Shown in pieces: positions 48,136-52,583 of a stretch of 64,000 bases of DNA (position 1 is its first letter; each line of letters starts with the position of its first letter). The position numbers and the translations under genes are program-made. Source of the stretch: Pseudidiomarina aquimaris. GTDB lineage: Bacteria; Pseudomonadota; Gammaproteobacteria; Enterobacterales; Alteromonadaceae. The notes beneath the pieces were generated by a model that searched no databases, was not told the DNA's origin, and saw only the letters and a list, made by a program, of their open reading frames with translations. The stretch is taken from the NCBI RefSeq assembly GCF_003987395.1, contig NZ_PIPT01000001.1:248001-312000 (forward strand). Reading direction: 5' to 3'.

Positions 48136-48927
48136 ATGGAAGCTTTCGATCAGGTACTCCAACGTATTACCCCAGCAGCCGAACAACAACTTGAACTGCC
48201 TGAGGGCTGGGGGCAAGGGCGTGCTCTCTTTGGCGGGCTAACCGCCGCGATAGCCTGGCAACATGGCCAAGCTGGTGCCGCAGCAGGGCAGCAACTTCGC
48301 GCTATGACCGTTTCCTTTGTCGCGCCAGTGCTTGCCGGGCAAGCCACATTGCAGCGTCGCATACTACGACAAGGAAAAAACGTTACCCAGATCGCGGTCG
48401 ACATTTTGCAAGAGAGCGAAGTGGTGCTTGCCGCATTACTCACCTATGGCTCGGCTCGCACCTCGCAAGTCAGCGTAACTGATACTCCAGAACCGCGTAG
48501 CGTTGCACCTGAAGCTGGCACACCTTTTCCACCGGTGAAGCTGCTACCTGAATTTGCCCGCGCGTTTGAATACAGCGTCACCGTCGGCGGCTTGCCTTTC
48601 AGCGGCAATAAGAGTCGTGAATTTGGTGGCTTTATGCGCTTTCGTGATTTAGCTCAACCAGTTTCTATCGGTACCTTTTTAGGCTTAGTTGATGCTTGGC
48701 CGCCAGCATTGCTTCCGCATCTGACCGAATTGGCGCCGGCAAGTTCGCTGACCTGGACCATTGAGTTTCCCTGTGAGTTACCGCAACAGCTCACCAATGA
48801 GTGGTGGCACTATGTCGCGACCATTGATTATGCCGCAGAAGGCTATGGCCACACACACGCGCACATTTGGGATAAGCATGGCCAACTTGTGGCGATAAGC
48901 CGACAGACCGTAACCGTGTTTGCTTAG
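48136..48927 (+). CDS. Acyl-CoA thioesterase family protein (double hot-dog, TesB-like)
   Basis: This 263-residue protein has two hot-dog halves: GRALFGGLTAAIAWQHG and VSFVAPVLAGQATLQRRILRQGKNVTQ in the first, and FGGFMRFRDLAQPVSIGTFLGLVDAWPPA with DYAAEGYGHTHAHIWDKHGQLVA in the second. The pattern is of the thioesterase-like group (4HBT_3). It should hydrolyse acyl-CoA; the substrate is unknown. It stands alone. Confidence 0.85.
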   Translation: MEAFDQVLQRITPAAEQQLELPEGWGQGRALFGGLTAAIAWQHGQAGAAAGQQLRAMTVSFVAPVLAGQATLQRRILRQGKNVTQIAVDILQESEVVLAALLTYGSARTSQVSVTDTPEPRSVAPEAGTPFPPVKLLPEFARAFEYSVTVGGLPFSGNKSREFGGFMRFRDLAQPVSIGTFLGLVDAWPPALLPHLTELAPASSLTWTIEFPCELPQQLTNEWWHYVATIDYAAEGYGHTHAHIWDKHGQLVAISRQTVTVFA

Positions 48928-49128
48928 TCTGAATGATGCCAAGTAGTTGATTATGAAACTAGAAAGGTCTTTTTTGAATACCCTAGCATAAGAAAATACT
49001 GACTTATGTCATTATTGTTGAATTTTTGCTTGCGCTCTTAACTTTACTGGTGCATATCTTGGAACACACCGACATGGGGTTGGTGTGCTTACACCGAAAT
49101 TTTTCGGTATCTTCAAAAGGAAGCGAAG
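48928..49128. other. Intergenic region with two hairpins before the UvrY-like gene
   Basis: CACACC at 49065-49070 can pair with GGTGTG at 49082-49087. A 16-base palindrome follows at 49093 (listed separately). No other feature is seen. Confidence 0.45.
49093..49108. promoter_or_regulatory. Palindrome in the leader of the UvrY-like gene
   Basis: ACCGAAA and TTTCGGT are separated by two T, making a perfect 7-bp inverted repeat that ends 20 bases before the ATG. It could be an operator or a leader hairpin near the ribosome binding site (AGGAAGCGAAG). Confidence 0.45.
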
Positions 49129-49821
49129 ATGACGGAGTTCATCATAGCTGTACCCTCACAACTTGTGGGGCTAGGTATGGAAACACTCATAAACCAACAA
49201 CCCAACTTTTCCGTAGTGGCTAGCGTGAATAACCAGCAGCAGTTACGCGACGCCATAGCCCGCTATCCATTCGCCACAGTAATCTTAGGTAGTCAATTTT
49301 GTAACGACGGCACCATAGAAATCTGGCGCAGGATTCAACGCCGTCAGCCAGATGTACATATGTTACTCTGGGCTGCAAAGTTTCAGGACGTTCTCGACTT
49401 TCAATGCAACTTAGAACGGGTTGAAGGCTACTTACTTGCGAATGCCCATAAGGAGGAACTGCTTAGTGCGTGCCATATGCTAAGCAAAGGGCGGATGTAC
49501 GTGGCTGCGAGTGTCGCAGAATATTTAGCAAAGAATCCAGCGCGCCAACGACAAGGCGAGTTACTGGCTAAATTAAGTAAACGGGAAATCCAAGTGGCCC
49601 AGATGATCGCGCAAGGAAGGCGCTCAGCGGTGATCGCACGGCTACTTAATATCAGTAGTAAAACCGTAAATACCTTTCGCTATCGAATTTTTGATAAACT
49701 CGGAATTAGTGGCGATGTCGAACTGACGCATTTAGCGTTACAAATGAAACTAGTAGATCTTGAAGAAGAGGTAGTAGTACAAGACGATGACGAAAGCAGA
49801 GAAGGAGGCGTTCGACGCTAA
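49129..49821 (+). CDS. UvrY/GacA-type regulator with a degenerate receiver domain
   Basis: This 230-residue protein sits directly before uvrC and pgsA, the place of uvrY in E. coli. The C-terminal LuxR helix-turn-helix (about 147-210: LSKREIQVAQMIAQGRR, ISSKTVNTFRYRIFDKLGIS, GDVELTHLALQMKLV) closely matches UvrY. The N-terminal part aligns with a receiver, but the acidic pair reads Val-Pro (residues 8-9), the phospho-acceptor Asp position is Gly54, the Thr/Ser is Ala82 and the Lys is Ala104. So it cannot be phosphorylated in the normal way. The acidic C-terminal tail overlaps uvrC by 35 bases. It may still act in the Csr pathway, but through another signal; this is inference. Confidence 0.85.
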   Translation: MTEFIIAVPSQLVGLGMETLINQQPNFSVVASVNNQQQLRDAIARYPFATVILGSQFCNDGTIEIWRRIQRRQPDVHMLLWAAKFQDVLDFQCNLERVEGYLLANAHKEELLSACHMLSKGRMYVAASVAEYLAKNPARQRQGELLAKLSKREIQVAQMIAQGRRSAVIARLLNISSKTVNTFRYRIFDKLGISGDVELTHLALQMKLVDLEEEVVVQDDDESREGGVRR

Positions 49822-51661
49822 GCAATTCCTAAAAAGTCTGACGCATCAACCCGGTGTGTATCGGATGTATGATGCGTCAGGCGACATTATTTACGTTGGT
49901 AAAGCGAAAGACTTGCGCAAGCGCGTCAGTAGCTACTTTCGCAGTCAGGTCGATAGCCCGAAAACCCAAACCCTCGTCAAACAGATCTGCAATATTGAAG
50001 TGACGGTCACCAATACCGAAGCAGAAGCTCTGATCCTCGAAAACAATTTCATCAAAAAGTATCGTCCACGCTACAACGTATTATTACGCGATGATAAGTC
50101 GTATCCGTATATCCTAGTGAGTGACCATCAGCACCCCCGTTTAGCCTTTCATCGCGGCACCCGTCGCGAAAAAGGCCGCTATTTTGGCCCGTTCCCGAAT
50201 GGTGTTGCCGTACGCAATAGCTTGCGTCTATTACAAAAATTATTTCCGATTCGCCAATGCGAGGACTCGTATTATCGGGCGCGGAGCCGACCCTGCTTGC
50301 AATATCAATTGAAGCGCTGCCTTGCGCCCTGCGTAAAAGGTTATTGTAGCGACGACGAATACACTGAACAGGTCGACTTGGCGAAACGTTTCCTTGAGGG
50401 CAAGAATCAAGAAGTCATTGACCAACTCGTGAGCAAAATGGAAGCGGCCAGCGAAGCACTCGATTTCGAGCGTGCCGCGCGCTTTCGTGACCAAATTGCT
50501 GCTTTGCGCCAAGTCCAGGAACGCAATGCGGTGACTGGCAATCAGCAGTCGCTCGACGTGATCGGTTACGCTCGGCAAGGCGGAATTGCCGCGGTGCATT
50601 TGCTGTTTGTGCGCGACGGCGCAGTGCAGGGCAGTCGCAGTTATTTCCCTAAGGTCCCGGCGAACACCGAAGACGCTGAAGTGTTGTTAGCGTTTTTACT
50701 GCAATTTTATTTGAATGACCAAGTGGAACGGCGTTTACCTCGCGAGATTATTTTGCCGGAGCAAAATGCTGCCAATGTGCTGGATCCTGAGCAAGAATTG
50801 CAAACACTCGAGCAAGCCTTAGCACAAAAAATTCGTATGACGCACAACGTCCGCGGCGAGCGCAAGCAATACCAAGTACTTGCGCAGAAGAACGCGATGA
50901 ATGCGCTCGATAGTAAGGCGAACCAAGCCAGCACCATGATGATGCGGGTGAGGGCACTCGAGCAGGAGCTTGATTTTGGCCGCCCGATCACCCGTATGGA
51001 ATGCTTCGATATCAGCCATACGATGGGCCAAGAAACAGTCGCTTCGTGTGTGGTATTCGACCAACAGGGGCCGAAAAAAAGCGACTATCGCCGTTACAAC
51101 ATCAAAGGGATCACGCCAGGCGACGATTACGCGGCTATGGCGCAAGCCTTGCAACGTCGTTTCGACCCACTAAAATTCGGCAAAGACGACGCTGCGCCCA
51201 TGCCTGATATTCTATTTATCGACGGTGGTAAAGGCCAACTGAGCCAAGCTGAGAGTTATTTTGCTTACTGGCCAACTGAGTCTGCAAAAGCCGCGCCGTT
51301 GCTCGTTGGCGTGGCGAAAGGCGAGTCACGTAAACCCGGGTTAGAGACGCTTATTCTAGCGGGTAGTCACGCGACGATTCCTCTCGCGGCTGATGCGCCG
51401 GCATTGCACCTGGTCCAGCATATTCGCGATGAATCACATCGCTTTGCCATTACCGGTCACCGTCAGCGTCGTGCCAAAGTACGACGCACGTCAAGATTAG
51501 AGGACATTCCGGGCATCGGTGCTAAGCGTCGGCAGCGTTTATTGCAAAATCTAGGTGGATTACAACAGGTAAAACAGGCTAGTATTGAGCAACTCGCAGC
51601 GGTACCTGGCGTCAGCCATGAATTAGCTGAAACCATCTATCACGCGTTTCGTGACGAATAA
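49787..51661 (+). CDS. uvrC: Excinuclease ABC subunit C
   Basis: This 624-residue nuclease has a GIY-YIG domain (about 20-95: QPGVYRMYD, DIIYVGKAKDLRKRVSSYF), the Cys-rich segment (RQCEDSYYRARSRPCLQYQLKRCLAPC), the UvrB-binding motif (LDFERAARFRDQIAALRQ), the RNase H-like endonuclease part (MECFDISHTMGQETVAS, FIDGGKGQLSQA) and the helix-hairpin-helix end (LEDIPGIGAKRRQRLLQNLGG). It makes both incisions in nucleotide excision repair. The start lies inside the previous gene. Confidence 0.98.
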   Translation: MTKAEKEAFDAKQFLKSLTHQPGVYRMYDASGDIIYVGKAKDLRKRVSSYFRSQVDSPKTQTLVKQICNIEVTVTNTEAEALILENNFIKKYRPRYNVLLRDDKSYPYILVSDHQHPRLAFHRGTRREKGRYFGPFPNGVAVRNSLRLLQKLFPIRQCEDSYYRARSRPCLQYQLKRCLAPCVKGYCSDDEYTEQVDLAKRFLEGKNQEVIDQLVSKMEAASEALDFERAARFRDQIAALRQVQERNAVTGNQQSLDVIGYARQGGIAAVHLLFVRDGAVQGSRSYFPKVPANTEDAEVLLAFLLQFYLNDQVERRLPREIILPEQNAANVLDPEQELQTLEQALAQKIRMTHNVRGERKQYQVLAQKNAMNALDSKANQASTMMMRVRALEQELDFGRPITRMECFDISHTMGQETVASCVVFDQQGPKKSDYRRYNIKGITPGDDYAAMAQALQRRFDPLKFGKDDAAPMPDILFIDGGKGQLSQAESYFAYWPTESAKAAPLLVGVAKGESRKPGLETLILAGSHATIPLAADAPALHLVQHIRDESHRFAITGHRQRRAKVRRTSRLEDIPGIGAKRRQRLLQNLGGLQQVKQASIEQLAAVPGVSHELAETIYHAFRDE

Positions 51662-51679: not shown

Positions 51680-52228
51680 ATGTGGAATATTCCCAACCTG
51701 CTGACCAGCTTTCGTATTCTGTTAATTCCCGTATTTCTAGGGATTTACTATGTTCCGGACAGTGATGCGCACTTCTGGGCTGCATTTGTGTTTGCCTTAG
51801 CCGCGATTACTGATGGTTTAGACGGTTATGTCGCACGACGTTTTAATCAATTTACCAAGTTCGGCGCGTTTTTAGACCCAGTGGCGGATAAAGTCATGGT
51901 TGCCGCGTCTTTGATTGTCGTCGTTGAGAACTATGCAGTATGGTGGATTAGCGTGCCAGCACTCGCTATCGTAAGCCGCGAACTGGTAGTATCAGCGTTA
52001 CGCGAGTGGATGGCTCAAATTGGCTCACAAGCCAAGGTACAAGTTTCAAATCTTGGCAAAATCAAAACCACCGCACAAATGGTCGCGATAGGGGGCCTCA
52101 TTTGGGAGGCGAATACCTTCGTTATCGTGACGGCCACCATTTTACTCTATGTCGCATTCGTGCTGACGCTGTGGTCGATGTGGGAATATTTGCGCGCCGC
52201 TTGGTCAGATTTAAGCCAAGTGGATTAA
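51680..52228 (+). CDS. pgsA: CDP-diacylglycerol--glycerol-3-phosphate 3-phosphatidyltransferase
   Basis: This 182-residue membrane enzyme has the CDP-alcohol phosphotransferase motif DGLDGYVARRFNQFTKFGAFLDPVADK (D-G-x2-A-R-x8-G-x3-D-x3-D type). It makes phosphatidylglycerol phosphate. It lies 18 bases behind uvrC and before the Gly-Cys-Leu tRNA cluster, as in E. coli. Confidence 0.97.
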   Translation: MWNIPNLLTSFRILLIPVFLGIYYVPDSDAHFWAAFVFALAAITDGLDGYVARRFNQFTKFGAFLDPVADKVMVAASLIVVVENYAVWWISVPALAIVSRELVVSALREWMAQIGSQAKVQVSNLGKIKTTAQMVAIGGLIWEANTFVIVTATILLYVAFVLTLWSMWEYLRAAWSDLSQVD

Positions 52229-52307: not shown

Positions 52308-52383
52308 GCGGGAATAGCTCAGCTGGTAGAGCACAACCTTGCCAAGGTTGGGGTCGCGAGTTCGAATCTCGTTTCCCGCTCCA
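52308..52383 (+). tRNA. tRNA-Gly (anticodon GCC)
   Basis: Cloverleaf with acceptor GCGGGAA/TTCCCGC, anticodon loop TTGCCAA in CAACC/GGTTG, T arm GAGTTCGAATCTC and encoded CCA. It corresponds to E. coli glyW. Confidence 0.97.
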
Positions 52384-52392
52384 AATTCCGAT

Positions 52393-52466
52393 GGCGGGAT
52401 GGCAGAATGGCTATGCAGCGGATTGCAAATCCGTGGATCTCGGTTCGACTCCGGGTCCCGCCTCCA
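52393..52466 (+). tRNA. tRNA-Cys (anticodon GCA)
   Basis: Cloverleaf with acceptor GGCGGGA/TCCCGCC, anticodon loop TTGCAAA in GGA/TCC, T arm CGGTTCGACTCCG and encoded CCA. It corresponds to cysT. Confidence 0.97.
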
Positions 52467-52496
52467 TCGGAGTCTCAGGTACTACATCTATGATGT

Positions 52497-52583
52497 GCCC
52501 GGGTGGTGAAATTGGTAGACACAAGGGATTTAAAATCCCTCGCTGGTAACAGCGTGCCGGTTCAAGTCCGGCCCCGGGCACCA
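52497..52583 (+). tRNA. tRNA-Leu (anticodon TAA)
   Basis: Type II tRNA with acceptor GCCCGGG/CCCGGGC, anticodon loop TTTAAAA in AGGGA/TCCCT, a variable arm (CGCTGGTAACAGCG), T arm CCGGTTCAAGTCCGG and encoded CCA. It corresponds to leuZ. Confidence 0.97.

Follow-up and report, generated by a model that had tools for sequence, protein, structure and literature searches.

A uvrY/gacA-type gene was identified in Pseudidiomarina aquimaris within a window of 64,000 nucleotides (assembly GCF_003987395.1, contig NZ_PIPT01000001.1, positions 248,001 to 312,000 of the forward strand). The features of the locus are listed in Table 1. The gene order uvrY-uvrC-pgsA-tRNA-Gly(gcc)-Cys(gca)-Leu(taa) matches that of E. 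coli K-12, which bears out the conserved uvrY position claimed in an earlier sequence-only reading, and uvrC is located 3' of uvrY in 69/69 loci, 42 of which carry pseudo-receivers.

Table 1. Features of the uvrY locus, in positions of the window
Feature	Position	Strand	Remarks
uvrY pseudo-receiver gene	49129..49821	+	ATG start, open reading frame, 230 aa
Residues 1-120, receiver-homologous domain with V8, P9, G54, A82 and A104	49129..49488	+	alignment and profile comparison
Residues 61-93, predicted alpha3-beta4-alpha4 with the new conserved set	49309..49407	+	helix and strand names inferred via NarL-family receiver alignment
Residues 148-203, intact LuxR/GerE-type helix-turn-helix output domain	49570..49737	+	Pfam GerE
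Leader hairpin CACACCGAC-ATGGG-GTTGGTGTG	49065..49087	+	paired in 25/26 genus genomes, letters differ
Second small leader hairpin ACCGAAA-TT-TTTCGGT	49093..49108	+	seen by eye in the alignment
Possible CsrA-site-like hairpin spanning start codon and ribosome-binding site, loop with AGGA	49108..49131	+	lead only
uvrC	49787..51661	+	overlaps the uvrY end by 35 bases
pgsA	51680..52228	+	
tRNA-Gly(gcc), tRNA-Cys(gca), tRNA-Leu(taa)	52308..52583	+	
Acyl-CoA thioesterase gene (4HBT_3/4HBT_3C), 5' of uvrY	48136..48927	+	

Residues D8, D9, D54, T82 and K104 of E. coli K-12 UvrY are replaced in the alignment by V8, P9, G54, A82 and A104, respectively. The loss of the phosphorylation residues that had been read by eye was thus confirmed against the E. 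coli UvrY record. The helix-turn-helix (HTH) half (residues 146-208; 63 positions) shows 52% identity to E. coli UvrY, a range of 52-57% when UvrY of relatives is included, whereas the receiver half (residues 1-120) shares 18% of its residues with the E. coli protein and 15-18% with canonical UvrY proteins. In two relatives from the same family that have a canonical UvrY, identity to E. coli UvrY is 65-76% for the HTH half and 54-68% for the receiver half. The Pfam GerE model scores 60.4 bits (cut-off 23.5) and agrees with the 52% identity in upholding the UvrY-like DNA-binding half noted earlier, whereas Response_reg (cut-off 30.2), scored on the single sequence, gives 15.4 bits. The top NCBIfam model is NF007018 (UvrY/SirA/GacA) with 120.6 bits, under its cut-off of 280; the next model scores 80.7 bits. 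No second UvrY was found in a search of the whole genome, where the four other matches share 25-29% identity and have E values of 2.4e-12 or weaker, and the supposition that this is the only UvrY here is thereby supported. By tree, synteny and HTH identity, the gene is a vertically inherited uvrY/gacA orthologue.

The receiver half was compared with receiver domains at the level of profiles. Twenty-nine pseudo-receivers and 18 canonical-type UvrY receivers were aligned by hhalign over 124 columns across the domain, with 98.3% probability and an E value of 1.2e-14. Residues 1-120 are therefore a receiver homologue in register, and a mere shift of the Asp, Thr and Lys residues is ruled out because the profiles align along the whole domain. 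A PDB search with the pseudo-receiver profile also recovered receivers of the NarL family, the best at E 1.1e-8, and Response_reg matches 22/29 pseudo-receivers weakly versus 18/18 canonical receivers strongly. An AlphaFold model computed from six sequences contains a beta-alpha-beta-alpha-beta order over residues 1-53; the model is poor (mean pLDDT 53.9, pTM 0.34), with confidence only at about residues 1-60 and values below 50 at residues 67-146. The protein would fold as a receiver-HTH regulator.

Orthologues were taken from 59 relatives and the genome itself, and from 246 genomes of the GTDB family. Three genera carry the pseudo-receiver, namely Pseudidiomarina (g1; 26 genomes including this one), its sister genus (g52; 10 genomes) and a third genus (g35; 9 genomes). 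The name Pseudidiomarina comes from records (five same-genus loci), and g52 and g35 are probably Idiomarina and Aliidiomarina, respectively. The Asp pair, D54 and K104 are absent in 26/26 genomes of Pseudidiomarina and 10/10 of the sister genus, and a sequencing error as the source of these losses is thereby ruled out. Position 54 is occupied by G, S, C, H or F in these two genera and position 82 by A, G or C. Six of the nine g35 genomes were read (UvrY is unread in G168, G243 and G270); the Asp pair and K104 are absent in all six and D54 in five, and T82 is kept in one. The exception at position 54 (locus L093 of genome G227) is a pseudo-receiver that keeps Asp54 without the Asp pair or the Lys, so that some weak phosphorylation within the clade is possible. 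Taken together, D54 is absent in 41/42 pseudo-receiver genes, and the Asp pair and Lys in 42/42. The canonical residue set is present in 10 genes of genus g7, one of them cut at a contig end before D8, and in 17 others, with the exception of L062 (genome G032). In that gene the Asp pair, Thr and Lys are intact, D54 is replaced by Gly and the genome contains a BarA-type Hpt domain; it may be a gac-type mutant, either of natural origin or selected in culture.

In a tree of 70 sequences, from which 15 loci were omitted (duplicates, one Bacteroidia hit and one kinase locus), the 42 pseudo-receivers form one clade with support of 100/100. The stem of this clade has a length of 2.88 changes per site, a value for which the program warns of long branches. 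The reading frame is open in all 42 pseudo-receiver genes read. The dN/dS ratio of residues 1-120, estimated between near relatives, is 0.011-0.066 in 7/10 pseudo-receiver pairs, dS being saturated in the other three, versus 0.015 in one canonical pair. The view that the change is one of input, not decay, is supported by this single clade of 42 genes and by the strong purifying selection acting on their receiver half. A set of new residues (T62, W66, R67, R68, R72, W81, Q86, D87, L89, D90, F91, Q92, C93 and V98) is fixed in 34-36 of the 36 genes of Pseudidiomarina and the sister genus. Placed via the NarL-family receiver alignment, these residues would fall in alpha3, beta4 and alpha4. According to PMC12632262, the FrzS pseudo-receiver binds its partner at the alpha3-beta4-alpha4 face, which no true receiver is known to use, and the dimer face of the NarL family is formed by alpha1-alpha5.

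The cut-off of the BarA model NF008318 is reached in 18/59 relatives, none of them in Pseudidiomarina, and in 0/30 genomes comprising this one and those of g52, g35 and g7. Because the BarA-like kinases of g7 score below that cut-off, 15 BarA-type Hpt domains were combined into a profile. Among the 63 genomes scored, the profile gives 114.9-147.0 bits in 18/18 canonical-type UvrY genomes (10 of g7 and 8 of other family genera, the D54G case included). No BarA-type Hpt above 44.8 bits was found in the 45 genomes of the three pseudo-receiver genera, in three of which UvrY is unread. In this genome the BarA model matches best to a soluble kinase of 688 aa (HisKA-HATPase-REC-REC-Hpt) encoded near gshA. 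As a possible shortened BarA, this kinase was set aside: its Hpt motif is generic (HTLKGAAANLG, without the BarA-type HKLHG...YxGVP), it forms its own clade with its g52 and g35 counterparts in a kinase tree that omits two duplicates, and no rlmD-relA neighbours occur in the stretches searched. In genus g7, BarA-type Hpt domains occur in short open frames of 271-341 codons, and not within a full-length BarA kinase, at loci L151, L153, L155, L156 and L157 (genomes G240, G268, G137, G031 and G255, respectively), and BarA may be split in part of this genus.

The sequence-only reading had also proposed that, with a single UvrY, the BarA/Csr pathway works without phosphorelay. This proposal was not borne out as worded in its BarA part, since no protein here reached the BarA cut-off and the three genera yielded no BarA-type Hpt. 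On the Csr side, CsrA is present as a protein of 63 aa encoded after alaS, but no CsrB-type RNA or exact GacA box was found here, with tests that overlook some genuine CsrB RNAs. The exact box TGTAAGN6CTTACA, absent from the genome, occurs in 14/58 genomes (4/26 of g1, 2/10 of g52, 2/9 of g35, 2/5 of g7 and 4/8 others), and the window contains one box with up to two mismatches versus 1.87 expected. Three canonical-type genomes (G026, G029 and G030) have a GacA box beside a GGA-rich CsrB-like RNA. The model RF00018, which misses these three RNAs, matches in 4/18 canonical-type genomes and 2/9 of g35 and has no match in g1 or g52. A pattern of AGGA triples recovers E. coli csrB and 7/7 CsrB-like RNAs from the canonical genera, but 0/3 of those in g35. 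With this pattern a CsrB cluster was seen in G030 and none in this genome, G018 or G177, an absence that is weak because the pattern misses the g35 type.

A CsrB-like RNA that has a terminator and numerous GGA hairpins is located directly before tadA in the g35 genomes G227, G258 and G281 (L210, about 1500-1730 on the + strand, and L214 and L215). It was not seen before tadA in the other six g35 genomes or in the 14 g1, six g52 and one g7 genomes inspected. Genome G227 contains both this RNA and the pseudo-receiver that keeps Asp54. As three g35 genomes have such an RNA, some members of the clade may have kept the Csr link, and a remaining link of the pseudo-receiver UvrY to CsrA is possible. 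A palindrome TGTAAGT-N4-ACTTACA (TGTAAGTAAGCACTTACA or close to it) occurs in genomes of g35, g52, g7 and g1 at loci L161, L164, L166, L171 and L175, with no CsrB-like RNA adjacent; it is perhaps the operator of another regulator.

The leader of uvrY contains a hairpin in 25/26 Pseudidiomarina genomes, with a stem of 7-13, a pairing score of at least 15 and a position 23-45 bases before the start codon. Its score is reached by a fraction of 0 to 0.115 of 200 shuffles. The threshold is reached elsewhere in 1/10 g52, 0/6 g35, 0/6 g7 and 0/6 other canonical leaders, and in 4/35 other window open reading frames of at least 200 aa, none of which scores 18, versus 21.5 here. Pairing at seven stem pairs is kept in 99.2% of cells versus 27.8-43.5% for slid controls, a count that leans to structure as the hairpins were picked for pairing. 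All seven pairs have changed on both sides across the hairpins. The count covers 18 distinct sequences for 24/26 Pseudidiomarina genomes, L008 (six-base loop) and L030 (no hairpin) being left out. This pairing supports a structured leader upstream of the pseudo-receiver uvrY in the genus. The loop often reads ATGGG or ATGGT. The hairpin cannot be a clade-wide input because it is absent in L030, 9/10 of g52 and 6/6 of g35. The AGGA hairpin at the ribosome site (stem of at least 4) occurs in 18/26 g1, 6/10 g52 and 1/6 g35 genomes. It was ruled out as a mark of pseudo-receivers by its occurrence in 5/6 g7 leaders and 5/36 window open reading frames (0/6 other canonical leaders).

The comparison establishes, at the level of sequence, the loss of the residues, the single clade, the kept slot, the purifying selection and the missing BarA-type Hpt. 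From these it is likely that an ancestral uvrY was converted once, in the ancestor of the three genera, and that alongside the loss of the BarA phosphorelay it became a pseudo-receiver regulator independent of phosphorylation. The regulator would bind DNA unphosphorylated through its conserved HTH domain and would act by its concentration, by a partner or ligand on the alpha3-beta4-alpha4 face, or by both. In Pseudidiomarina, the covarying 5' leader hairpin would set or read translation of uvrY or stability of its mRNA. UvrY can act unphosphorylated in at least one assay, as plasmid-borne D54A and D54E forms both complemented in Aeromonas dhakensis (PMC7250320). For Shewanella, PMC3171408 reports that D54N UvrY takes no phosphate from BarA and that csrB levels drop over 100-fold without barA or uvrY. 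Idiomarina genomes are described as reduced, with trophic specialisation, in PMC6336423, and it is a conjecture that the loss of a metabolic-state sensor fits such genomes. A more specific scheme is put forward tentatively, in which BarA was deleted, UvrY was rebuilt as a partner-sensing pseudo-receiver that has gained a binding face, its dose in Pseudidiomarina is set by the structured leader and CsrA possibly closes the loop at the ribosome-site hairpin.

A gene whose signalling half has drifted since the loss of BarA, and which is heading for loss itself, would agree with the reduced genomes of the family reported in PMC6336423 and with the very long stem branch (2.88). Such decay is very improbable, as the frame is open throughout the clade, the receiver dN/dS is low in seven of ten pairs (three saturated) and a new residue set has become fixed where the canonical set was lost. 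It is even harder to credit that a different LuxR-type regulator has taken the uvrY slot. The low identity of the receiver half to canonical UvrY and the long stem would agree with such a replacement, but the HTH half is clearly UvrY-like, the slot is the same in every locus and the UvrY/SirA/GacA model leads the next NCBIfam model by 120.6 to 80.7 bits.

A constitutive DNA-binder, with the receiver as a dimerisation scaffold only and control exerted through transcription or translation of the gene alone, is possible, if somewhat doubtful. Constitutively active pseudo-receivers controlled by amount are known from PMC12632262, and the covarying hairpin of Pseudidiomarina agrees with this arrangement. 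However, most leaders of the other two genera lack the hairpin, and conservation falls on alpha3-beta4-alpha4, not on the NarL-family dimer face of alpha1-alpha5 given in that paper. Binding of a small ligand to the pseudo-receiver, such as an acyl-CoA or acyl chain tied to the adjacent thioesterase, was also considered and appears improbable. Ligand-binding pseudo-receivers are described in the same paper, and in 26/26 g1 and 10/10 g52 genomes, versus 0/27 canonical-type loci, the 4HBT_3 thioesterase gene directly adjoins uvrY on its 5' side in the same orientation. Nevertheless, it does so in 0/6 g35 loci (two of the 33 g35 and canonical-type loci have short upstream DNA), about 200 bases separate the two genes, and descent alone predicts a shared gene order in two sister genera.

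The conversion proposed here as likely can be compared with several known systems. The regulators UvrY, SirA, GacA, VarA and LetA (NF007018) share with this protein the slot, length, HTH domain and orthology by tree and synteny, whereas here the Asp pair, phospho-acceptor, Thr and Lys are missing, no BarA was found and the model score is under the cut-off. ChxR, HP1043, NblR, RitR, VpsT, CsgD and FrzS, as described in PMC12632262, are alike in receiver homology, lost catalytic residues and intact output, whereas in this case the hub of a known pathway was converted in three genera and its kinase was co-lost. The conserved face, a putative partner site, resembles the partner face of FrzS in its place (alpha3-beta4-alpha4, by that paper). 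The BarA/UvrY-CsrB-CsrA cascade of Shewanella oneidensis (PMC3171408) has CsrA and the uvrY orthologue in common with this genome, in which, unlike the cascade, neither BarA nor a GacA box with CsrB was found; three comparison genomes have the box-CsrB pair. No description of this UvrY conversion was found in the open-access literature searched, subscription papers being outside the scope of the search.

By the estimate in PMC12632262, pseudo-receivers make up several percent of receivers, and the switching of the bacterial ones is called a mystery there. In this case the ancestral protein has a known function and partner, the conversion maps to a single branch, sister genera with the canonical form are available for comparison and the residues fixed afterwards can be read from dozens of genomes. 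The question of what replaces phosphorylation can therefore be tested in bacteria that are culturable and non-pathogenic. In this salt-loving marine group, a switch protein without its phosphorylation parts and usual sensor is nonetheless preserved and probably works in another way. The case also warns that orthology-based annotation overstates BarA/UvrY signalling in the family. GacS and GacA are listed from KEGG for Idiomarina in PMC7366521, a listing that disagrees with the missing BarA-type Hpt if the sister genus is Idiomarina.
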